From a virus, in IMG/VR virus record IMGVR_UViG_3300032116_010249, positions 1 to 52,945 of that record: a stretch of DNA of 52,945 nt; one strand, 5' to 3'. Position numbers and translations under genes: made by a program. Position 1 is the first letter of the stretch; every line of letters starts with the position of its first letter. Below are positions 37,303-51,353 of this stretch, piece by piece. The notes beneath the pieces were generated by a model, which saw only the letters and a list, made by a program, of their open reading frames with translations, was not told the origin of the DNA and searched no databases.

Positions 37303-38334
37303 ATGTCACTACCAATTGATACAAAGTATTTACGATTAGTTTCTTCTCGCTTGCGTAACTTCAAGCAGAAGAATAGTAATTTGTTCAACTTCTCTTGCCC
37401 ATATTGCGGCGATAGTCAGAAGAACAAATCCAAAGCCCGAGGTTATGTCTTTTCAAAAGGCAACGACCTCATCTTTAAATGCCATAACTGTGGAGTAGGC
37501 GCAAATGTTGGTAACTTCCTCAAGCATATTGATTCCTCATTATACCGAGAATACACTCTGGAAAAGTATAAGACAGGTGAATCCAATAACTCCTACTCAG
37601 CAAACACAGTCCTCAACATACAACCGCCCAAATTTGGCCGAGTTGAAAAAGCAAAGGTATTTGAACACGCAGAGTGGGTTGACAAATTACCAAGTGGACA
37701 TTTTTGTTTAGATTACTGTATTAAAAGGCAGATACCTTCTAAACTATACAGTAAATTATTATTCACTCAGCATTACAAACAATTCATAGATGTTTTAATA
37801 CCAAATCATGGTAAGCAGTTAGTTGATGATGCTCGCCTTGTAATTCCTTTCTATGATGAGTATGATGATTTAATTGCGGTATCAGGCCGTGCGCTAGAAA
37901 CAAATGACAAAACGCTACGATATGTCACGCTTCGCACAAATGAGAATGAGAACAAGTTGATTTACGGTATGGACCGTGTAGACCTCAAGCAACTAGTAAA
38001 GGTTGTAGAAGGCCCTATCGATTCAATGTTTCTTACCAATTGTGTGGCCAGTGGTGATGCCAACTTATCCATTGTATCAGATGAAATTTCAGCAGATGAA
38101 AAGTTATTAATTTTTGATAATGAACCTCGCAATAAAGAAATCGTAAAGATGATGCAAGATGCAATCAAATCAGGTCACAATGTCGTAATTTGGCCAAGCA
38201 ACACCCAAGGCAAGGACATAAATGAAATGATTATTGCTGGAAAAAGCGTGGATGAGATAGAAAGAATTATAAGTAGTAACTCCTTCAGAAGTATCGAAGC
38301 GCAGTTAAGATTTAACATGTGGAAGAAAATATGA
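37303..38334 (+). CDS. 61: DNA primase gp61
   Basis: A 343-residue protein (T4 gp61 has 342). The zinc ribbon is C32PYC35 ... C60HNC63. The TOPRIM domain shows VVEGPIDS (about 234-241) and LLIFDNEPRN (second acidic motif). With gp41 it forms the T4-type primosome and makes RNA primers for lagging-strand synthesis. It lies 24 kb from gp41 here. It starts behind its own sigma-70-like promoter without an SD. Its stop overlaps the thyX start. Confidence 0.93.
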   Translation: MSLPIDTKYLRLVSSRLRNFKQKNSNLFNFSCPYCGDSQKNKSKARGYVFSKGNDLIFKCHNCGVGANVGNFLKHIDSSLYREYTLEKYKTGESNNSYSANTVLNIQPPKFGRVEKAKVFEHAEWVDKLPSGHFCLDYCIKRQIPSKLYSKLLFTQHYKQFIDVLIPNHGKQLVDDARLVIPFYDEYDDLIAVSGRALETNDKTLRYVTLRTNENENKLIYGMDRVDLKQLVKVVEGPIDSMFLTNCVASGDANLSIVSDEISADEKLLIFDNEPRNKEIVKMMQDAIKSGHNVVIWPSNTQGKDINEMIIAGKSVDEIERIISSNSFRSIEAQLRFNMWKKI

Positions 38335-39008
38335 ATGTGAAATTGATTAGTTATTCTGAAGCTGCAGGTACAATGCCAGCAGATATTAACGATGTCCAAC
38401 AATTGATTGCTTTTTGTGCTAGAGTATCTAACCCAAACAATCAAACCAACACAGACACGAGCGAGAAGTTAATTCGTTATCTCATAAAGAATCAGCATTG
38501 GTCACCATTAGAGATGGTGAGTGTTTGTTTAGAAATAGAAACCACAAGAGATATAGCAAGGCAGATGTTAAGACACCGTTCTTTTTCTTTTCAGGAGTTT
38601 TCACAGCGTTATGCTGATCCTACCAAAGACCTAGAATTTGAATTAAGGGATGCCAGATTTCAAGACCCAAAAAATAGACAGAATAGTATAAAAATGGATG
38701 GATCCTTGGGTCAAGCTTTAATTTGTGATGAATGGAAACACAAACAAAAAGTCCTTATTGCACTTGCCAAAGAAACATATCGTTGGGCAATTGAAAAAGG
38801 CATAGCAAAGGAACAGGCTAGGGCTGTTCTGCCCGAAGGCAATACTGTTTCTCGTTTGTATATGAATGGAACTTTGCGTAGTTGGATACACTACATAGAA
38901 CTCCGTTCCGCAAATGGCACACAGAGAGAACACATCGAAATAGCAAAAAAATGCGCTGAAGTAATCGCCAAAGTATTTCCGATGGCGAATGAATTTGTAA
39001 CAAAATAA
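38331..39008 (+). CDS. thyX: Flavin-dependent thymidylate synthase ThyX
   Basis: The ATG at 38331 shares the ATGA overlap with gp61; a GTG 12 bases upstream is less likely. The 225-residue protein has the ThyX signature RHRSFSFQEFSQRY (residues 81-94), the RHRxxSxxExSxRY motif that binds FAD and dUMP. ThyX converts dUMP to dTMP with methylene-tetrahydrofolate and NADPH, unlike the T4 td gene (ThyA type). It works with the dCMP deaminase at 5310 and the reductase genes that follow. Confidence 0.95.
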   Translation: MNVKLISYSEAAGTMPADINDVQQLIAFCARVSNPNNQTNTDTSEKLIRYLIKNQHWSPLEMVSVCLEIETTRDIARQMLRHRSFSFQEFSQRYADPTKDLEFELRDARFQDPKNRQNSIKMDGSLGQALICDEWKHKQKVLIALAKETYRWAIEKGIAKEQARAVLPEGNTVSRLYMNGTLRSWIHYIELRSANGTQREHIEIAKKCAEVIAKVFPMANEFVTK

Positions 39009-39020
39009 CTGGAGTATTGA

Positions 39021-40817
39021 ATGTCAGATATTGTCCACGGTATTACCGTTGATTTTTCCCGTGATTCTCTTTTTGATGAATTAGGTTTAAAAAGGTTAAA
39101 AGAAAGTTATATGCGTGAGGATGAAACCTCACCACAAGAAAGGTTTGCATATGTATCTAAGTCTTTTGGGTCGAACGCTGAGCACTCGCAAAGGTTATAT
39201 GAGTATAGTTCTCGACATTGGCTTTCTTATAGCACTCCCATTCTTAGCTTTGGTAGGAGCAAGCGGGGTCTTCCTATTTCATGTTTTCTCCCGTATCTGG
39301 ATGATTCTGCGGAAGGTTTGGTTGATTGCCTCGCAGAAGTTAATTGGCTTTCGATGCTAGGAGGCGGAGTTGGAATCGGTATTGGAATTCGTTCGGCAGA
39401 TGATAAGTCTGTTGGGGTTATGCCTCATCTTCGCACTTATGATGCTTCTAGTTTGGCTTACAGACAAGGCCGCACCAGGCGTGGCAGTTACGCTGCTTAT
39501 CTCGATATTAGCCATCCTGATATTCTTATATTTTTAGAAATGCGTAAGCCAACTGGCGACCAGAATATGCGTTGTCAAAATCTTCATCATGGTATCAACA
39601 TAACAGATGATTTTATGCATATTATTGAGCAGTCGATGCTTGATCCACAATTTGATGATACATGGAATCTCAAAGACCCACATAGTGGTGAGGTGCGTGA
39701 TACTGTATCAGCTAAAGAATTATGGCAACGAATCTTAGAAATTCGTATGCAGACTGGTGAACCGTATCTTCATTTTATTGATACAAGCAATCGCTTAATG
39801 CCAGAGTTTCAAAAGGCTAAAGGCCTATCAATCAAGCAATCCAACCTTTGCTCAGAGATTATTCTACCAACTGACAAAGAACGCACAGCAGTTTGTTGCC
39901 TCTCATCGGTCAATTTAGAATACTATGATGAATGGAAAAATGATCCATTATTCTTGCGTGATGTAGCAGAGATGCTTGACAATGTGTTACAGTATTTTAT
40001 TGACAATGCACCAGACACGGTTCAGCGAGCAAAATACTCTGCTACAATGGAAAGAAGTATTGGTATTGGTGCGTTAGGTTATCATGCTTATCTACAAAAA
40101 AATAATATTCCGTGGGAATCAGCACAAGCAACAGGCGCAAATTTGAAAATGTTTAAGCACATCAGAGCTTATTTGGATCAAGCAAACATATATTTAGGAA
40201 AACAAAGAGGTGAAGCACCTGATGCCAAAGGCACAGGCCAAAGGTTTTCACATATGCTTGCTATTGCTCCTAATGCTAGTTCATCGATCATCATGGGCAA
40301 TACAAGCCCTTCTGTTGAGCCTTTTCGGGCTAATGCTTATCGACAGGACACATTGAGCGGCTCACATCTAAACAAAAACAAACATTTGGATAAAATTATC
40401 CAGGAGAAATGTCAAAATGACAACAAATTGGACTACAATGAGATTTGGTCATCAATCATCGCAAATGACGGAAGTGTTCAACACCTCAACTTTTTGGATG
40501 AATGGCAAAAAGATGTATATAAGACCTCTATGGAAATTGACCAAAGATGGTTGGTGGACCATGCAGCTAACAGACAAAGTTACATTGACCAAGCGCAATC
40601 TGTCAACCTATTTTTTAGACCAGATGTTAATGTAAAATATCTTCATGCGGTGCATTTTCAAGCATGGAAACAAGGATTAAAAACGCTTTATTATTGTCGT
40701 AGTGAAAAGTTGGCTAAAGCAGATAAAGTAAGCAAGAAGATTGAACGACAAGTAATTGAAGAAATTGATTTGAAGGCATTAGCCACAGAAGAAATTTGTT
40801 TAGCTTGCGAGGGATAA
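39021..40817 (+). CDS. nrdA: Ribonucleotide reductase class I alpha subunit NrdA
   Basis: A 598-residue class I alpha chain. Catalytic parts: C88 in ISCFLP, NLCSEI (Asn, thiyl-radical Cys, Glu) near 275-280, a partner CC in AVCCLSSVNLE, and a C-terminal CLAC pair (C593, C596) for reduction by glutaredoxin. The roughly 100-residue N-terminal ATP-cone is missing (T4 NrdA is 754 residues), so the overall activity site that binds dATP is absent and the enzyme should resist dATP shut-off. It makes dNDPs with the NrdB at 42396, separated by two other iron-enzyme genes. Confidence 0.95.
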   Translation: MSDIVHGITVDFSRDSLFDELGLKRLKESYMREDETSPQERFAYVSKSFGSNAEHSQRLYEYSSRHWLSYSTPILSFGRSKRGLPISCFLPYLDDSAEGLVDCLAEVNWLSMLGGGVGIGIGIRSADDKSVGVMPHLRTYDASSLAYRQGRTRRGSYAAYLDISHPDILIFLEMRKPTGDQNMRCQNLHHGINITDDFMHIIEQSMLDPQFDDTWNLKDPHSGEVRDTVSAKELWQRILEIRMQTGEPYLHFIDTSNRLMPEFQKAKGLSIKQSNLCSEIILPTDKERTAVCCLSSVNLEYYDEWKNDPLFLRDVAEMLDNVLQYFIDNAPDTVQRAKYSATMERSIGIGALGYHAYLQKNNIPWESAQATGANLKMFKHIRAYLDQANIYLGKQRGEAPDAKGTGQRFSHMLAIAPNASSSIIMGNTSPSVEPFRANAYRQDTLSGSHLNKNKHLDKIIQEKCQNDNKLDYNEIWSSIIANDGSVQHLNFLDEWQKDVYKTSMEIDQRWLVDHAANRQSYIDQAQSVNLFFRPDVNVKYLHAVHFQAWKQGLKTLYYCRSEKLAKADKVSKKIERQVIEEIDLKALATEEICLACEG

Positions 40818-40818
40818 T

Positions 40819-41634
40819 ATGGAATGGATTGAACAATTGCCTTATGGTGTTGATATAAAATTATTAAGAGAATCTTTAGAAGAAGTTAAAAAAGTTGGGC
40901 CAATGGTGTTTCAAGGTTCTGAATTTGGTTATAATAATTTTGGCGGATGGAATTTACAAAGTAGAAGTGGTGACTATCGTGATGGTTTCCAAGTTGGCAT
41001 AGAGAAGTGCTACCGCAAATATTGGAAATCAGGCACTTTTAATTATCACTTAGCCAAATTTTTAGATTACTCTCATGCTTTCGAACACAAAAATAAAACA
41101 AATGCTTGTGTTGGCGCTCTAGGTAGTGTTGTTGACTTTTTAGAATCTAAAGGTTTTTATCCTCGTAGAATGAGATTGACTTGTTTAAAACCTCACTCAA
41201 AAAGTATAGTTCATCGTGATGCACCAGATGAAAAATATCTTGCTAGAATTCATATACCTTTAATAACAAATGAAAAATGTGTGCATTGGACCCAACACGG
41301 TGAAGCACACATGCCAGCTGATGGTTCTGTTTATATGTTATGGGTAAATTGTATGCATCAAATACGAAACGAATCAGATGAGGATCGTTATCATATAATA
41401 TGTGATGCTTACGATACTAAAGGACTAACTCAACACTTTAAATATGGTGGTGACATTAATACACTAATCGATGAAGCAGAAACATATCGAAAAAAATTAG
41501 ATTCAATAAAAATTGACATTTTTAGAAAAATGGCTTACACGATTGGTAGAGAATTTCATGTGGCTAAATTCAAAATGGAACAAAAGATGATAGAAGCATC
41601 TTACAAGTTAAATGATAAACCTCAATACACTTAA
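40819..41634 (+). CDS. Aspartyl/asparaginyl beta-hydroxylase-like 2OG-Fe(II) oxygenase
   Basis: A 271-residue protein with the AspH-type jelly-roll signature: VHRDAPDEKYLARIHIPL gives the His-x-Asp pair (H132, D134), and WVNCMHQIRNES gives the distal His (H180), with R190 (DEDRYHI) a candidate 2-oxoglutarate binder. Members hydroxylate Asp or Asn side chains or lipid-related substrates, using Fe(II), oxygen and 2-oxoglutarate. SD GAGGG precedes it. It sits between nrdA and a desaturase gene. Target unknown; modification of a virion or host protein is possible. Confidence 0.75.
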   Translation: MEWIEQLPYGVDIKLLRESLEEVKKVGPMVFQGSEFGYNNFGGWNLQSRSGDYRDGFQVGIEKCYRKYWKSGTFNYHLAKFLDYSHAFEHKNKTNACVGALGSVVDFLESKGFYPRRMRLTCLKPHSKSIVHRDAPDEKYLARIHIPLITNEKCVHWTQHGEAHMPADGSVYMLWVNCMHQIRNESDEDRYHIICDAYDTKGLTQHFKYGGDINTLIDEAETYRKKLDSIKIDIFRKMAYTIGREFHVAKFKMEQKMIEASYKLNDKPQYT

Positions 41635-42394
41635 AAGAAATGTTTTCACCTGCACTTACCAAGTATCACAAATTACAATTCTGATACAGGTACTACTTTC
41701 AGTTGTTGGTTTAGTTTACATTTACTTTAACTTTTCTTGGTGGTATGTGGCTTTGCCTTTTATTTGGTATGCGGTTTTACTATGGGGGTCACATCACATA
41801 GCACTACACCGTTATTTTTCACACGGATCATTTGACGTAAATAAGTTTTGGCATATCGTAATGTGCTATAGCAGTTGTTTAGTGTCTTTTGGTTCACCAT
41901 TTTCATATGCATTGGCTCATCGAGCACACCATAAACATTCAGATACAGATAAAGATACTCATGCACCAACAAAGATTGGTTATTTAAATGTAATGTTCTT
42001 TAAATGGAAATTAAATAGTGTGAACCTATTAGATAGAAACAGAAAGATTGACAATTGGGCCATACATGCTCACAAGAATTATAGTTTAGTTATTTTGTTT
42101 TTCTATATTGCATTGTTACTGATTGATATTGGTTTGGCATTTTCATATAATATTGGTATCGTGATTGCATTATTTGGAGTTGCATATGTGAATGTATTTT
42201 CGCATGTAAAAAATCCATTAAATTATAGAAACTTTGAAACGGATGATTTATCATCCAATAATTTATTTGTAGGAATTGTAGGTGGCGAGTGGCACAATAA
42301 TCATCACCATAACCCACAAAATTGGAATGAAAGAGTGAAATGGTGGGAACTAGATATACCAGCACAAATAATAAGACTAATAAAAAAGGACTGA
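41612..42394 (+). CDS. Membrane fatty-acid desaturase (delta-9 type)
   Basis: A 260-residue membrane protein. Three histidine boxes mark the diiron site: HHIALHRYFSH (61-71), HRAHHKHSD (103-111) and EWHNNHHHNP (near 226-235). About four hydrophobic segments lie around them. This is the acyl-lipid/acyl-CoA desaturase family; it introduces double bonds and can change host membrane fluidity. Desaturases are also known in cyanophages. The start ATG lies 23 bases inside the previous gene. It needs oxygen and iron. Confidence 0.9.
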   Translation: MINLNTLKRNVFTCTYQVSQITILIQVLLSVVGLVYIYFNFSWWYVALPFIWYAVLLWGSHHIALHRYFSHGSFDVNKFWHIVMCYSSCLVSFGSPFSYALAHRAHHKHSDTDKDTHAPTKIGYLNVMFFKWKLNSVNLLDRNRKIDNWAIHAHKNYSLVILFFYIALLLIDIGLAFSYNIGIVIALFGVAYVNVFSHVKNPLNYRNFETDDLSSNNLFVGIVGGEWHNNHHHNPQNWNERVKWWELDIPAQIIRLIKKD

Positions 42395-42395
42395 A

Positions 42396-43385
42396 ATGAC
42401 AAAGAAGAAACATAACCTGATGGATGAAAGACAATCATTCAAACCATTCTATTATCCATGGGCCTATGAGGCATGGCTAAAGCACGAACAGATTCATTGG
42501 TTACATACAGAAGTGCCAATGCTCGAAGATGTGAAAGATTGGAAGAATAGATTAAAACCATCAGAGAAACAATTTCTTACACACATTTTCCGTTTCTTCA
42601 CACAAGGTGATATTGATGTGGCTGGTGGTTATGTAAAGAATTACTTACCATATTTTCCTCAACCAGAAGTTCGTATGATGCTTCTAGGCTTTGCTGCAAG
42701 AGAAGCGCTTCATGTTGCTGCATATTCGCATTTAATTGAAACACTTGGTTTACCTGAAACAATGTATAATCAGTTTTTAGAATATGATGCCATGCGCCAA
42801 AAACATGATTATGTCTTAGACATTTCATCACAGAATTCCTCAAAAGAAAACACCGCAAAACATATTGCGGTATTCTCGGCATTTACAGAAGGTATGCAAT
42901 TGTTCTCATCTTTCATCATGTTGCTTAATTTTCCACGCAACGGCACAATGAAAGGCATGGGACAGATTGTTACATGGTCAATTGTAGATGAAACCATGCA
43001 CACAGAGTCCATGATTAAATTATTTCGCACATACATAGAAGAAAACAAAGAAATTTGGAACGATGATCTTAAAGGCCAGTTATACACAATTGCAAGCAAG
43101 ATGGTCGAATTAGAAGATAAATTCATTGACCTTGCCTTTGAAATGGGTGAAATGACGAATTTAACAAAAGAAGATGTAAAACAATACATTAGATACATAG
43201 CAGATAGAAGATTGATTTCATTGGGCTTAAAAGGCATTTTTAAAGTTAAAAAGAATCCATTACCATGGGTTGAAGAAATGGTCAATAGCCCTGTTCATGG
43301 CAATTTCTTTGAAAACCGTGTTACTGATTATGCAAAAGGTGCTTTGTCTGGTAATTGGGACGATGTATGGGGTAAAGCCGCATAA
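42396..43385 (+). CDS. nrdB: Ribonucleotide reductase class I beta subunit NrdB
   Basis: A 329-residue ferritin-like protein. Expected diiron ligands are present: D72, E103 and H106 (REALHVAAY), E165, and E199 with H202 (DETMH). Tyr110 sits in the position of the radical tyrosine, seven residues after E103. So it looks like a normal Tyr-radical class Ia beta subunit. It starts two bases after the desaturase stop. It provides the radical to NrdA. T4 NrdB has 388 residues. Confidence 0.95.
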   Translation: MTKKKHNLMDERQSFKPFYYPWAYEAWLKHEQIHWLHTEVPMLEDVKDWKNRLKPSEKQFLTHIFRFFTQGDIDVAGGYVKNYLPYFPQPEVRMMLLGFAAREALHVAAYSHLIETLGLPETMYNQFLEYDAMRQKHDYVLDISSQNSSKENTAKHIAVFSAFTEGMQLFSSFIMLLNFPRNGTMKGMGQIVTWSIVDETMHTESMIKLFRTYIEENKEIWNDDLKGQLYTIASKMVELEDKFIDLAFEMGEMTNLTKEDVKQYIRYIADRRLISLGLKGIFKVKKNPLPWVEEMVNSPVHGNFFENRVTDYAKGALSGNWDDVWGKAA

Positions 43386-43398
43386 TTAGAAAGAACAT

Positions 43399-44118
43399 AT
43401 GTTAATAGAAAACACAGTAGTCGATAAAACAACCATATTAAATAATATTCGTGAGAAAGGATGGAGTAATGTTGGTTGTTTAAAAAAAGAAATTATTGAT
43501 GAATTTAGAAATTATTTGGATAATTCAAATTGGTATGATGGTCATGTAAAAGCAAATAAAACTGAAGTGCTAGAAAATAAACATTCTTCACCTAATCATT
43601 GTAGTTCTGTATCAATGCATAATGTTATTCTTGCACCAAATTGGTTTGAATTTACATTAAAAATGACAGAAGAAGTTGTCATAGAATACTTTGAAACAAA
43701 AGATATAGTTTTATACAGTTATAATGCTTTTTACAGTAATTTAACTGGAGGAGATTATATTGGAGTTCAAACTTGGCACAGAGATTATGATAGCGAAAAT
43801 TTTTTAGCATTATTTGTTTACTTAACTGACACATATGATATTGAAGATGGTGCTCATGCTTTTGAAGAAAAAGATGGTCATAAAATAGATATTTTTGGTC
43901 CTGCTGGTACTATATTTTTTGCTGATACCAGACAACAACACATGGGACACAAACCAAAAAGACATCCAAGAGGAATGGCTTGGGCTAGGTGGTCTACTGA
44001 TCCAGATCCAAAAACCTATAACATAGATTGTTTGTCTCCTTTGAATCGAGACCTTATGGGAAAAAGATACCCTCAAGATGAAACAATGAGAAATATAATT
44101 AGAAAGGTCGTTAATTAA
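43399..44118 (+). CDS. Phytanoyl-CoA dioxygenase-like 2OG-Fe(II) oxygenase
   Basis: A 239-residue protein with the PhyH pattern: WHRDYD (near residue 126-132) for the His-x-Asp iron pair, GPAGTIFFADTR, and a distal HMGHKPKRHPRGMAWARW region supplying the second His and the 2-oxoglutarate-binding Arg. Members hydroxylate lipid, halogenated or antibiotic-like small molecules. This gene is more AT-rich than nrdB. Its last base overlaps the next ATG. Substrate unknown. Confidence 0.7.
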   Translation: MLIENTVVDKTTILNNIREKGWSNVGCLKKEIIDEFRNYLDNSNWYDGHVKANKTEVLENKHSSPNHCSSVSMHNVILAPNWFEFTLKMTEEVVIEYFETKDIVLYSYNAFYSNLTGGDYIGVQTWHRDYDSENFLALFVYLTDTYDIEDGAHAFEEKDGHKIDIFGPAGTIFFADTRQQHMGHKPKRHPRGMAWARWSTDPDPKTYNIDCLSPLNRDLMGKRYPQDETMRNIIRKVVN

Positions 44119-44627
44119 TGATAGATAAAGAAAAATTAGCGCAAGCAATACAAAAAGAATTCAACCGAACAGGAGCAATTTCACTAATGAAACTATACAT
44201 TTTTATCGCACTACTCGTTGCAATTACAATACCAGCATTTGCACAAAAACAACCAAAAGGCGTAACATACGATGCACAGATTCTCCGTGTATCTGACGGC
44301 GATACTGTTGTTATTTCCGCACCATTCTTACCCGCACCACTTAAACCTGAACTTGCCGTCAGAATCTACGGTGTGGACACTCCAGAAAAAGGCCACAGAG
44401 CACAATGTCCTGCTGAAGATGCAAGAGGTCAAGCCGCCTCAGCTTTTACAAAGCAAGCCGTTGCTCAGTCCACTCAGCGTCAAGCTGTGTTGTACGGATG
44501 GGATAAATTTGGTGGCCGTGTTCTAGGCGATATAATTCTTAATGGTCAATCTCTCCGTGCCATGTTAATTGCAAATGGTTTTGCTCGTGAATATTACGGA
44601 GAGGCCAAACAATCATGGTGTAATTAA
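44118..44627 (+). CDS. Exported thermonuclease (SNase/Nuc family)
   Basis: From ATG 44118 the product has 169 residues. An internal ATG at 44187 with SD AGGAG (44171-44175) begins a clean signal peptide: KLYIFIALLVAITIPAFA-QKQ. That shorter form (146 aa) would be exported. The nuclease domain shows SDGDTVV (metal Asp), AVRIYGVDTPEKG (catalytic Arg and metal Asp) and GGRVLGDIILNG (second catalytic Arg). It digests DNA or RNA in the periplasm or after lysis. Two starts may produce cytosolic and exported forms. Confidence 0.8.
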   Translation: MIDKEKLAQAIQKEFNRTGAISLMKLYIFIALLVAITIPAFAQKQPKGVTYDAQILRVSDGDTVVISAPFLPAPLKPELAVRIYGVDTPEKGHRAQCPAEDARGQAASAFTKQAVAQSTQRQAVLYGWDKFGGRVLGDIILNGQSLRAMLIANGFAREYYGEAKQSWCN

Positions 44628-44779
44628 TGGCTACACTACACCATATTTGCGATGAGTGTAGCTCAGAATTCACACTCAAATATAACGAAGAACAAACCGA
44701 ATCTGATCCTCAAAATTGTCCATTCTGCGGCGAATACATATATGAAGATATGGACAATGTTGAGGATGAAGATGAATGA
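44627..44779 (+). CDS. Small zinc-ribbon protein (50 aa)
   Basis: A 50-residue frame with ATG overlapping the preceding TAA and TGA overlapping the next ATG. It has two CxxC pairs (CDEC near residue 8 and CPFC near 31) separated by an acidic linker, the shape of a zinc ribbon, followed by a very acidic tail ending EDEDE. Such proteins often touch transcription or replication complexes. Specific target unknown. Confidence 0.65.
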   Translation: MATLHHICDECSSEFTLKYNEEQTESDPQNCPFCGEYIYEDMDNVEDEDE

Positions 44780-45183
44780 GTTGGTTCTTTCTTAATACTA
44801 AAGATGAATTTACAGAAGAACATATAGGCGAGGCCTTTGGCTTTGTCTATATGATTACGCACCTAAAAACAGGTCGTAAATACATTGGTAAGAAATTCTT
44901 TACCAAATCCAAAACCAGGCAGGTCAAAGGCAAAAAGAAACGGTCACGGGTTTCAAGTGATTGGATGACTTATTGGGGAAGTAATAAGAAGCTACAAGAA
45001 GAAGTAAAAGAGAATGGTGAGGATCAGTATATCAGAGAGATACTACACCTCTGTAAAACTCGGAGTGAATGTTCGTATTGGGAGACCTGGGAGATATTCA
45101 GTCGTCATGCTCTAATGCATGAATCATACTATAATGAATGGGTTTCTTGTAGAATTCGAAAGGACCACCTTATTAAGCTTTAG
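44776..45183 (+). CDS. GIY-YIG-like endonuclease-family protein
   Basis: A 135-residue protein. Residues 22-39 (GFVYMITHLKTGRKYIGK) fit the GIY-YIG core with the first motif degenerated to VYM and the second YIG intact. A basic loop (KGKKKRSRVSSDW), then EIFSRHALMHESYYNEW, may hold the His and Glu catalytic residues. Comparable stand-alone genes occur in T4-like phages as putative homing endonucleases or repair enzymes. It ends the operon before a 152-base non-coding gap. Confidence 0.6.
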   Translation: MSWFFLNTKDEFTEEHIGEAFGFVYMITHLKTGRKYIGKKFFTKSKTRQVKGKKKRSRVSSDWMTYWGSNKKLQEEVKENGEDQYIREILHLCKTRSECSYWETWEIFSRHALMHESYYNEWVSCRIRKDHLIKL

Positions 45184-45942: not shown

Positions 45943-46662
45943 ATGAAATCCTTATTCTATTCTTACAATCAAAAAGTTGATAAAGCATACATCATTCGTG
46001 TAAAAGACCACGAAATATCTGAGCAAAAAGCTTCAGAATGTGCAGCATCATGTCGTAAAGTTGGAATGCCATATGATTATTGGGATGCATATGATGGTAC
46101 TGGCGATAGAATAATTTCACCTGTACACCATAACATAGTAATGGATCTAATTAAAATTACGGACCATTATATGACAAGAGGTGAAGTTGCTTGTGCATTG
46201 TCACACATTAGTTTATGGGCTAGATGTATTCGACAAGACCAACCATTGGTTGTATTAGAACATGATACAATAATGGTACAACCATTTTTAGATCATCCAA
46301 CAATTGGTACTCTCTGTTATCTTGGTGGTCGTGAACAAGCTAAAATGGGTTGGCCTGTATACCCAACACCACCTCATGCATCAGAAGGCCCAAACTACCA
46401 TTTCATATGCCGTGCTCATGCATATTCAATCGACCCTCAATCAGCTAAGAATCTTTTAGCATATGTAATCAAATACGGTTTAACAGGCCCGTTAGATATT
46501 ATAATGAGAACAGATTTATTTCCTGTTGTACAATTTGGTTTATATGCCTATGATGAAGATAATGGGCAAAAAACAACAACAATTAAAGGCAGAGATCACG
46601 TTAATGAAGAAGGCAAACCTGCACATAGACCAAGTCGCCGTAATGATGACCTATCATTTTGA
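45943..46662 (+). CDS. GT25-family (LPS-type) glycosyltransferase
   Basis: A 239-residue protein with the GT25 signature: KAYIIRVKDHE start, GEVACALSHISLW (80-92) and PLVVLEHDTIM (101-111, with E106 and D108 as acidic centre). GT25 enzymes add galactose or similar sugars to lipooligosaccharide in Gram-negative bacteria. The acceptor for the phage enzyme is likely host LPS or a virion glycoprotein. It sits alone, between the phasin-like genes and a promoter at 46686. Confidence 0.8.
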   Translation: MKSLFYSYNQKVDKAYIIRVKDHEISEQKASECAASCRKVGMPYDYWDAYDGTGDRIISPVHHNIVMDLIKITDHYMTRGEVACALSHISLWARCIRQDQPLVVLEHDTIMVQPFLDHPTIGTLCYLGGREQAKMGWPVYPTPPHASEGPNYHFICRAHAYSIDPQSAKNLLAYVIKYGLTGPLDIIMRTDLFPVVQFGLYAYDEDNGQKTTTIKGRDHVNEEGKPAHRPSRRNDDLSF

Positions 46663-47663: not shown

Positions 47664-47827
47664 ACTTAGAGATCGAAGCATATCCTGGCGAATTGAGAGA
47701 GTTGAGAAATAAAGTGGCTCAATTAGAAAATGAACTGTTGAAATATAAACCACAGGACCAAAGAGTCCGTGTATCTGGTGTGCCATATGAGGTTGATTTT
47801 AGAACCATCAAGCAAGAGGTTGAGTGA
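47660..47827 (+). CDS. Small coiled-coil protein (55 aa)
   Basis: ATG 47660 overlaps the previous TGA, and its own TGA at 47825-47827 shares a base with the next ATG. The 55-residue product has a leucine-heptad helix (GELRELRNKVAQLENELLK) and a beta-like tail (VRVSGVPYEVDFRTI). No SD of note; translational coupling is likely. Function unknown. Confidence 0.6.
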   Translation: MNLEIEAYPGELRELRNKVAQLENELLKYKPQDQRVRVSGVPYEVDFRTIKQEVE

Positions 47828-48543
47828 TGTTAATGCCGTTTGAGATTGATGTGCCGTATCGTATGCGGCCTAATATGCGGCTACTTGGTGAGAATGAACC
47901 AATTACTTACCAAGACAAAGATTATGATGTTTATATCAGCGAAAAGAAAAAGATACTGGCACAGGCCTATGGAAATAATTGGAATCCACACTTGTATAAA
48001 AAAGTATTGGAATATTTACAATGCGATACAATGAAAGACGCCATACTCAAATACCAAGAAGATTTTGTTGTATGGGCACCTGATATGAAAGGCCAATTAT
48101 CTGTACAGATGGCCTCTGTTTGCTTCCCATCAGGTTGGGATCCTGTATCTAAGGTCAATAAGAGTTTTGCTGAGATACATGAGCCTGTTGCTGATAATGA
48201 AATGATAATGAAAGCCGCTGATAGTATTGCAAAGATGATTACAGAAAAAGGCCCATTTGTTCGCTCTGTATGGACAATTGCGAACTCACCAGACCTCAAT
48301 CGGCATCCATCGGTCAAGAAGCCATGGACCAATGAACGATTAGAAGATATGTGGTATCGAACAGAGCGACAAGTAACCGTGCCTCTTGGTGATGCCGCTA
48401 TTTTCTTTATTCGTACCTATACCGTGCCATTGTTATCAGTCGATGTTGAAAGAATACGCAAATCAATCTATAGTATGACCAACGATACGCTTGCTTATAA
48501 AGACCTTCACTATGTTATGGAGGTACTAGGTGCAAATCCTTAA
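47827..48543 (+). CDS. DUF3445-like protein (heme-dependent oxidative N-demethylase family)
   Basis: The start is ATG 47827 overlapping the preceding TGA; a GTG one codon earlier is possible. The 238-residue protein carries the DUF3445 block order: VPYRMRPNMRLL start, the V-EDF--W-like QEDFVVWAPD, VCFPSGWDPVSKVNKSFAEI followed by HEPV, then WYRTERQVTVPLGDAAIFFI followed by RTYTVPL. The His in IHEPV and the conserved ER-Q block are family hallmarks. Bacterial members are heme-dependent oxidative N-demethylase subunits. The phage copy is shorter than typical members. Role in infection unknown. Confidence 0.7.
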   Translation: MLMPFEIDVPYRMRPNMRLLGENEPITYQDKDYDVYISEKKKILAQAYGNNWNPHLYKKVLEYLQCDTMKDAILKYQEDFVVWAPDMKGQLSVQMASVCFPSGWDPVSKVNKSFAEIHEPVADNEMIMKAADSIAKMITEKGPFVRSVWTIANSPDLNRHPSVKKPWTNERLEDMWYRTERQVTVPLGDAAIFFIRTYTVPLLSVDVERIRKSIYSMTNDTLAYKDLHYVMEVLGANP

Positions 48544-49394: not shown

Positions 49395-49620
49395 ATGGAA
49401 AGATACTGACCATGATACACACTACTATTACAAGACCGCTAATGGTTGTATCGTAGGTCAAACACATAATATATCTCACACCAAAATATACATGGCCATC
49501 ATTATATTGGCCAATCAAGAAAACTACCTTGGTCGGTTTGTATCATTAGAGTTTGCTAAGAAAGCCATTGAGAACTATTGGGATATACAAGAGAGGACAT
49601 TATTAGAAAATGCGAATTGA
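49381..49620 (+). CDS. Small hypothetical protein (79 aa)
   Basis: Two adjacent ATGs (49381, 49384) overlap the preceding gene's last codons. The protein is rich in His and Tyr ([20 protein letters not shown]), followed by [14 protein letters not shown] and [19 protein letters not shown], the last suggesting an alpha/beta fold. It overlaps the GMP reductase start by 11 bases. Function unknown. Confidence 0.55.
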
Positions 49621-50632
49621 AGAAGATATTAAATTAGATTTCCGTGATGTATTGATACGACCAAAGCGGTCTACATTAAGTAGCCGCAAAGAGGTTGACC
49701 TCGAAAGACAATATCATTTTAAGCACTCAGGTCAAACCTGGTCTGGTGTACCAATTATGGCCTCAAATATGGATGGCGTAGGTACATTTGAAATGGCAAA
49801 GGCTCTTAGTGCGCTACGCTTGTTCACAGTATTAAAGAAAGGTTATACTGTAGCAGAGCATCGTGCTGGGTCTGAGAATGTAATGTATACTGATACCTTT
49901 GCTGTATCTACAGGCACCAGTGAAATGGAGTTTGCCAAACTTGGTATCATACTACAAAACAATCCAGACATATCGTTTATTTGTATTGATATTGCAAATG
50001 GTTATAGTGAACACTTTGGTGATTTCGTTGAAAAGGTTCGCAAAGAATTTACAAACAAAACAATTATCGCTGGTAATGTAGTGACCGCTGATATGACACA
50101 AGAATTGGTATTGCGTGGTGCCGATATTGTTAAAGTAGGCATTGGGCCAGGTTCTGTATGTACCACTCGCATACAAACAGGTGTAGGTTATCCTCAGTTA
50201 TCGGCCATCATTGAATGTGCTGATGCTGCACACGGTCTTGGTGCTCATATAATTGCAGATGGTGGTTGTACCTGTCCTGGTGATGTAGCCAAGGCATTTG
50301 GTGGTGGTGCAGACTTTGTAATGCTTGGTGGTATGCTGGCAGGCCATGATGAAGGCGGTGGTGAAATTAAAGATAACAAAGTAACATTCTATGGCATGAG
50401 CTCCGATACTGCAATGGAAAAGCATCATGGCGGTGTAGCAGAGTATAGATCATCCGAAGGCCGTACAGTAGAGATACCGTACCGTGGTCCCGTAAAACAT
50501 ACAATACAAGATTTGCTTGGCGGTCTACGCTCAACCTGTACCTATGTTGGTGCCTCCTGCCTCAAGCGATTGCCCAAGTGTACCACATTTATAAGGGTCA
50601 ACCGTCAAGTAAATGATGTATTTTTAAAATAA
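49610..50632 (+). CDS. guaC: GMP reductase
   Basis: A 340-residue IMPDH/GMPR-fold TIM-barrel protein without CBS domains. The N-terminus [19 protein letters not shown] is typical. The catalytic loop is [11 protein letters not shown] with C184, the nucleophile, followed by Thr residues used by GMP reductase, and the C-terminal region has [14 protein letters not shown] and [12 protein letters not shown]. It deaminates GMP to IMP with NADPH, letting the phage turn degraded host guanine nucleotides back into the purine pool. Unusual among T4-like phages. Confidence 0.9.
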
Positions 50633-50642
50633 GGAAATAAAA

Positions 50643-51353
50643 ATGGAACGAAAAGAACTACTTAAATTTGCTAAAATTGCAGCAGTAACCTATGATAATC
50701 CTAAAGATTCTCGGCCAAAATTTAAAGAGCAAGGCTATGAAATTGTAGAATTCTTTGATATAAAAGATGCTCAAGGTTATCTCCTAAAGGGTGCAAATGA
50801 ATATGTACTCAGTTTCCGTGGCACAGAATCAAAGAGAGATGCACTTGCTGACCTCAAGGCCCGAATGAAAACAGAATCAAGTGGCGCCAATGTTCATCGT
50901 GGTTTCAAAGGAGAATTAGATAAAATCTGGCCTTCAATTGAAAAATCCATTAGGCAAATAGACCGCCTTTACATTACAGGTCATAGTCTAGGCGCTGCGA
51001 TGGCAACAATTGCCGCAAGTAGAATTCAGAGCAAGGTACTCGCATTGATTACATTTGGTAGTCCCCGTGTAGGAACAAAACAATTTGTAAACGGCCTGAA
51101 TGTCACGCACTACAGAGTACAAAATAATTGTGATGATGTGACCAAAGTTCCTCCATGTATAATGGGTTACAGGCATCACGGTATACACAAGTATATGAAT
51201 TTCCATGGTGAGTTTAGAAATCTTACAAGCTGGCAGAGAATTAAAGATATGATTCGAAGTAGAATTAAAGCCCGTCAAAAAGGCCAGAAATTCATTGGTG
51301 TATTTGATCATATGATGAACAGATATATTGCTAAACTAGAAAAAGAAGAATGA
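50643..51353 (+). CDS. Class 3 lipase (alpha/beta hydrolase)
   Basis: A 236-residue protein with the class 3 lipase set: GYLLKGANEYVLSFRGTES gives the oxyanion strand, YITGHSLGAAMATIAAS holds the GHSLG elbow (S115), FGSPRVG follows, and NNCDDVTKVPP (D164 or D165) with a later His (MGYRHHGIHKYM region) completes the triad. There is no signal peptide or membrane segment. It may hydrolyse host membrane lipids during takeover or lysis. Its stop overlaps a holin-like gene at 51350. Confidence 0.85.
   Translation: MERKELLKFAKIAAVTYDNPKDSRPKFKEQGYEIVEFFDIKDAQGYLLKGANEYVLSFRGTESKRDALADLKARMKTESSGANVHRGFKGELDKIWPSIEKSIRQIDRLYITGHSLGAAMATIAASRIQSKVLALITFGSPRVGTKQFVNGLNVTHYRVQNNCDDVTKVPPCIMGYRHHGIHKYMNFHGEFRNLTSWQRIKDMIRSRIKARQKGQKFIGVFDHMMNRYIAKLEKEE

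Follow-up and report, generated by a model that had tools for sequence, protein, structure and literature searches.

A probable variable cargo slot with metabolic genes in the ribonucleotide reductase operon of a T4-like aquatic phage

The DNA analysed was a 52,945-base IMG/VR virus record (IMGVR_UViG_3300032116_010249, hereafter the window), and the block studied was a run of five plus-strand genes at 39021-44118 in which the class I ribonucleotide reductase (RNR) genes nrdA and nrdB are interleaved with genes for an AspH-type oxygenase, a membrane desaturase and a probable further 2-oxoglutarate (2OG)/Fe(II) oxygenase. This is an nrd cargo slot of a kind already known from T4-like phages, here filled with metabolic genes, and the block is probably variable cargo expressed with RNR in such a slot of T4-like aquatic phages. 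The DNA polymerase and primase of the window are T4-like (PHROGs): the closest named match of the polymerase was Synechococcus phage S-H38 (51% identity) and the closest match of the primase was Pelagibacter phage Mosig (42% identity). The genes of the block are as follows:

39021..40817, + strand: nrdA, class I RNR large subunit, 598 amino acids (PF02867, E 9e-106); left edge of the proposed cargo slot
40819..41634, + strand: AspH-type 2OG/Fe(II) oxygenase, 271 amino acids (PF05118, E 1.2e-8); within the proposed nrdA-nrdB slot
41612..42394, + strand: membrane fatty-acid desaturase, 260 amino acids (PF00487, E 1.6e-15)
42396..43385, + strand: nrdB, class I RNR small subunit, 329 amino acids (PF00268, E 1.4e-75); right edge of the proposed inner slot
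43399..44118, + strand: probable 2OG/Fe(II) oxygenase of PhyH type (phyH, weak assignment), 239 amino acids (conserved HxD...H, phrog_61, E 5.5e-4)

Gene order was compared in the best 80 of at least 600 NrdB matches listed in viral contigs, chosen by NrdB similarity (loci are designated by L numbers). nrdA was located upstream of nrdB in 61 of these 80 loci, and the gap between the two genes was below 60 nt in 7, 60-300 nt in 3, 300-1000 nt in 23 and at least 1000 nt in 28. The preliminary description of this DNA had taken adjacent nrdA and nrdB to be the usual state in phages; adjacency was found in 7 of the 61 relatives (5 of 48 after grouping of nrdB at 95% DNA identity), and a split pair is the rule, not an oddity, in these phages. 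The interval was occupied by thioredoxin genes in 28 loci and by GATase/BPL_N-like genes in 20; further occupants were SNase, glycosyltransferases, GLF, Aldolase_II, metallophosphatase, IscU/IscA, 2OG and HNH genes. The test for a T4-like cargo slot was whether, in relatives, the gene content between a conserved nrdA and a conserved nrdB varies, and it does. Among the named phages, T4 carries mobE and nrdB.1 between nrdA and nrdB, Mosig two open reading frames (ORFs), Melnitz one and P-SSM4 none.

The same variability was seen at close range. Three loci with NrdB 91-94% identical to that of the window (L049, L050, L052) have an interval without aspH and without the window-type desaturase: where the window has aspH-desaturase, L049 (NrdB 94% identical) has a 210-aa ORF without assignment and L050 (91% identical) an HNH ORF. 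The order nrdA-aspH-desaturase is common to the window and L002-L005, and in L005 it is extended to nrdA-aspH-desaturase-thioredoxin-nrdB. For the window and L004, DNA identity was 97.2% in the primase gene, 96.5% in nrdA, 76.4% in aspH, 91.8% in the desaturase gene and 91.4% in nrdB, and a profile made in DNA windows of 200 bases limited the dip to about 40800-41600. On these alignments aspH was exchanged as a unit, one gene at a time between conserved flanks. Because the ratios of nonsynonymous to synonymous substitution rates (dN/dS) were low (0.03-0.22), purifying selection acts on all five genes: the values were 0.03-0.06 for nrdA/nrdB, 0.04-0.09 for the desaturase gene, 0.09-0.16 for aspH and 0.13-0.22 for phyH.

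The block is flanked by the following genes:

37303..38334, + strand: T4 gp61-like DNA primase (phrog_47, E 4e-68); conserved left neighbour of the nrd block
38319..39008, + strand: thyX thymidylate synthase (PF02511, E 1e-42)
44118..44627, + strand: SNase-type nuclease (PF00565, E 3e-10)
44776..45183, + strand: SegE-type GIY-YIG endonuclease (PF19835, E 1.6e-33)

The primase gene is likewise directly 5' of nrdA in Melnitz, Mosig and P-SSM4, and a SegE-type gene lies 3' of nrdB in most mapped loci, where it is the usual right boundary of the variable stretch. The SNase-type nuclease is a mobile neighbour, found on either side of nrdB among relatives. The stretch between nrdB and segE varies too: phyH is missing from the corresponding place in L004 and L002 (L004 has other genes before segE), and in L003 phyH is accompanied by a second desaturase, of DesA-like type. 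Of homing endonuclease genes, the SegE-type gene lies on the right, and no second one was among the ten proteins scanned from the primase to a glycosyltransferase family 25 (GT25) protein.

Within the block, nrdA and aspH are separated by 1 nt, the desaturase gene and nrdB by 1 nt, and nrdB and phyH by 13 nt; aspH and the desaturase gene overlap by 23 nt, and phyH and the next gene by 1 nt. Judged from this tight packing, the genes are likely to form one transcription unit with thyX at its 5' side. The preliminary description had suggested co-regulation by iron or oxygen, which found no support: a search for Fur boxes with up to 3 mismatches gave no matches, and promoter-like (sigma-70-like) sites showed no excess (31, against 33.6 in shuffled sequences). 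The T4-type late promoter TATAAATA occurred twice in the window, neither time in the block, with 5.2 occurrences expected by chance.

We propose that the nrdA-nrdB interval and the nrdB-to-SegE stretch together act as a variable cargo slot in the RNR operon of T4-like aquatic phages. The conserved primase, nrdA, nrdB and segE genes would supply the homology for recombination by an agent that is itself putative, and the comparison shows single genes entering, being swapped or leaving while RNR stays undisturbed. Homing endonucleases, the SegE-type gene included, may be candidate drivers of the exchange by analogy with other phages, for which excerpts of PMC10448857 describe them in that role. 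The cargo, here an AspH-type hydroxylase, a membrane desaturase and a probable 2OG oxygenase, would be translated from the RNR transcript and hence made during phage DNA replication, as the packing suggests. Judged by its family and by the papers on other phage desaturases, the desaturase would most likely act on host membrane acyl chains, and the AspH-type enzyme may hydroxylate some substrate, perhaps another envelope component.

The nearest known counterparts are the nrdA-nrdB insertions of T4-like phages (T4 mobE, nrdB.1), with which the block shares the interval, the variable occupant and the conserved flanks; according to excerpts of PMC2988022, T-even phages have mobE in their nrdA/nrdB region, and expression from promoters upstream of nrdA is a further likeness. 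The T4 slot holds a homing endonuclease, whereas that of the window holds metabolic enzymes and the nearest endonuclease (SegE type) lies outside it, after nrdB. The gene-organization section of PMC3653736 reports that genes of unknown function are in some cases scattered among nrdA and nrdB, and that islands may hold the auxiliary genes; that section names no desaturase or AspH-type cargo in such islands near RNR. The closest precedent for the AspH/desaturase/2OG set is in the pelagimyophages: in the part of PMC7029224 that covers them, AspH is a core gene and a stearoyl-CoA desaturase and a 2OGFeDO protein are reported from the freshwater PMP-D group, with linkage to nrd genes left unstated there. 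Phage desaturases with histidine boxes and a proposed role in membrane fluidity are described in excerpts of PMC7300359 and PMC7678222, from other phages and in other contexts than the window. No tblastn match at 1e-5 to AspH, the desaturase or PhyH was found in 50,697 phage records, and no description of this nrd/AspH/desaturase arrangement was found in searches of an open-licence library.

The gene order and most of the identities given in the preliminary description stood, with nrdA, aspH, the desaturase gene and nrdB above family cut-offs and intact in their motifs; the PhyH-like gene is only probable. NrdA (PF02867, 355 bits; NF006577, 748 bits, cut-off 620) and NrdB (PF00268, 255 bits; NF007186, 442 bits, cut-off 237) belong to class I RNR. 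NrdB has every metal ligand (D72, E103, H106, E165, E199, H202) and Tyr110 at E103+7, in agreement with the reference pattern of six ligands and a radical tyrosine; the sequence does not tell Fe from Mn as the metal. The desaturase belongs to PF00487 (58 bits, gathering cut-off 29.7), and its histidine boxes (HxxxxH, HxxHH, an extra His, HxxHH) are invariant in 13 aligned sequences; its match in the PDB was stearoyl-CoA desaturase 4ymk (E 6e-4). Assignment to the DesA family was rejected (NF049918, 51.9 bits, cut-off 400). The second desaturase type, 3' of nrdB in L003, is DesA-like (384 bits against the same cut-off), and desaturases of that type share only 23-25% identity with the window type and lie on the opposite side of nrdB.

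The AspH-type protein belongs to PF05118 (35.4 bits, gathering cut-off 22.6) and has the Fe/2OG residues H132-x-D134, H180 and R190; among 16 sequences D134, H180 and R190 do not vary, and H132 hardly does. Its structural model had a mean predicted local distance difference test score (pLDDT) of 60, with only the core usable. In the structural matching called for in the preliminary description, the top PDB matches of this model in Foldseek were 7v4m/7v4f, a nucleoside-antibiotic hydroxylase (E 1e-10), and other top matches were proline cis-4-hydroxylase and human AspH. These fold matches leave the substrate of the modelled enzyme unfixed. Assignment as the lipid A hydroxylase LpxO was rejected (NF033391, 12 bits, E 0.081, cut-off 500). 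Among 65 bacterial AspH matches, one was 53% identical, on a 7.2-kb contig of a Bacteroidetes metagenome-assembled genome, and a second was 35% identical over 170 residues; the other 63 were at 23-43%. As the matches were mostly of low identity and confined to the catalytic core, no host was inferred from them.

For the PhyH-like protein the structural matching failed, the model (pLDDT 36) being unusable and too poor for a fold search. No match was obtained in Pfam or NCBIfam, nor in the PDB, its profile included, and the PHROG matches were weak (phrog_61, 2OG oxygenase, 5.5e-4; phrog_274, 5.9e-7). The HxD motif (H127, D129) and H184 are kept in all five aligned sequences. Four of the six contigs with phyH relatives have no nrd genes labelled in the fetched flanks. 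In L045, L046, L128 and L129, phyH relatives (61-66% identical) stand directly 5' of an IscA-like gene.

The AspH-seeded set (38 records, L130-L167) showed that AspH relatives are mostly located away from nrd genes, which were absent from the fetched flanks of 35 records. Most lie in another T4-like stretch; in L159, the one locus annotated in detail, aspH is 5' of exonuclease, gp59 and gp32 genes, and genes for a 2OG oxygenase and a radical-SAM protein are nearby. Gene-order comparison had been put forward in the preliminary description as a way of recognizing chance insertion, through relatives with the oxygenases elsewhere and nrdA and nrdB adjacent: oxygenases elsewhere were found, and adjacency was rare. 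By this check the regulatory reading was refuted in part.

These records also bear on a rather doubtful alternative, namely that AspH and the desaturase are a functional pair that modifies envelope lipids or the surface, moves as a pair and in this phage simply happens to lie in the nrd slot. The pair stands together in the window and in L002-L005, and in the second context, 5' of exonuclease, gp59 and gp32, AspH relatives occur near DesA-like desaturases. From the AspH side, the two were within 3.5 kb of each other in six of the nine records with both (3.8 expected, P 0.09), but those nine were the only ones of the 38 with any desaturase. From the desaturase side (30 distant records), PF05118 was present in six and within 3.5 kb in four of them (1.0 expected, P 0.006); both P values are too small, several records being near-duplicates (L025 and L031 look so). 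Against a fixed pair, aspH is in the nrd slot without this desaturase beside it in L039, L041, L082, L130 and L131. The co-occurrence is suggestive only.

Two points weigh against variable cargo as the full account. AspH in the slot is shared with phages whose RNR is only about 80-84% identical (L005, L130, L131), and the AspH-nrd association is therefore older than a passing insertion. In addition, desaturase, IscU, IscA-type and thioredoxin genes concentrate at nrdB, which a neutral slot would not predict.

This concentration was measured in 44 of the 80 NrdB records (each at least 11 kb), with uniform placement on the fragments as the null; near-identical nrdB were grouped, near-duplicates were only partly removed and the families were chosen after inspection of the slot. 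Within 1.5 kb of nrdB were 5 of 5 desaturase matches (0.8 expected, nominal P 4.5e-5), 6 of 7 for IscU (1.35 expected, nominal P 1e-4), 7 of 13 for IscA-type proteins (1.9 expected, nominal P 6e-4) and 15 of 16 for thioredoxin (2.55 expected, nominal P 2e-13), and 1 of 16 for PF13640 oxygenases (1.9 expected, nominal P 0.87); the nominal P values overstate significance, since the matches share descent, the families were picked post hoc and the null was uniform. When L005, a desaturase-seeded record, was added to the 44, PF00487 gave 7 matches in 5 of 45 records, six of them no more than 1 kb from nrdB; the seventh, in the L005 record, was 34 kb off.

From such counts it could be argued that NrdB, desaturase, Fe-S assembly proteins and thioredoxin form an iron/redox island, kept together for a common cofactor supply and common electron donors and provisioned as a set, a reading that we regard as unlikely. 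Two desaturase types as distant as those described above, on two sides of nrdB, fit it, as does L016, which has an unrelated RNR and also carries a desaturase directly 3' of nrdB. However, the window has no homologue of thioredoxin, IscU or IscA (tblastn E<=0.01, up to 10 queries per family), the PF13640 2OG enzymes, equally dependent on Fe and O2, show no enrichment, and the counts carry the reservations given with them, the matches being related by descent. Moreover, nrdB was present in five of the 30 distant desaturase records, adjacent to the desaturase gene only in L016 and within 4 kb in L032.

In a stronger form, the nrdB neighbourhood of this T4-like clade would be a selected iron/redox cassette. 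The diiron reductase would be co-expressed with thioredoxin, Fe-S assembly proteins and diiron desaturases, for iron loading, electron supply and membrane remodelling alongside DNA synthesis, and lineages would recruit different members, at least two distantly related desaturase types among them; this too is improbable in our judgement. A lipid product combined with an iron/redox bias of the slot is possible. In many relatives IscU and IscA-type Fe-S assembly genes stand next to nrdB, on its 3' side in L051, L052, L059, L073, L074 and others; IscU is present in at most 16 and IscA-type genes in at most 20 of the 80 NrdB loci.

A role of the oxygenases in regulating or modifying RNR itself had also been raised in the preliminary description. 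Their tight packing with nrdA and nrdB would suit such a role, but close relatives (L049, L050, L052) manage without aspH, relatives of AspH and PhyH are mostly found away from nrd genes, no iron-response site was found and PF13640 oxygenases are not enriched, so that this idea is very improbable indeed. That these enzymes all require Fe(II) and O2 follows from their chemistry and does not speak for an action on RNR.

In the cargo-slot reading, which we prefer, aquatic phages swap metabolic genes here inside an essential operon, and the bias of desaturase, IscU, IscA and thioredoxin genes at nrdB could reveal how phages provision iron enzymes during infection.

Some further observations concern nrdA. 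NrdA of the window has 598 aa, against 768 aa for P-SSM4 NrdA (implied by the annotated 2,307 nt gene in the same syntenic place); given the short NrdA, one RNR lineage may have taken the place of another at this site. In L039 (2603-3160), about 0.5 kb of extra DNA divides nrdA into two ORFs, and the nrdA ORFs of L073 and L093 are likewise split. No structured RNA or group I intron was found at Rfam gathering cut-offs in the window, L039, L073 or L093.

Downstream of the block, the GT25 protein (45943-46662, PF01755, E 4e-14) is a possible surface-sugar gene product. It is followed by a match to the haem-dependent oxidative N-demethylase alpha-subunit family (47824-48543, PF11927, E 8e-28) and by an IMP dehydrogenase/GMP reductase domain protein (49610-50632, PF00478, E 1e-68). 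A class 3 lipase, possibly a further lipid-acting enzyme, is encoded at 50643-51353 (PF01764, E 3e-21), about 6.5 kb downstream.

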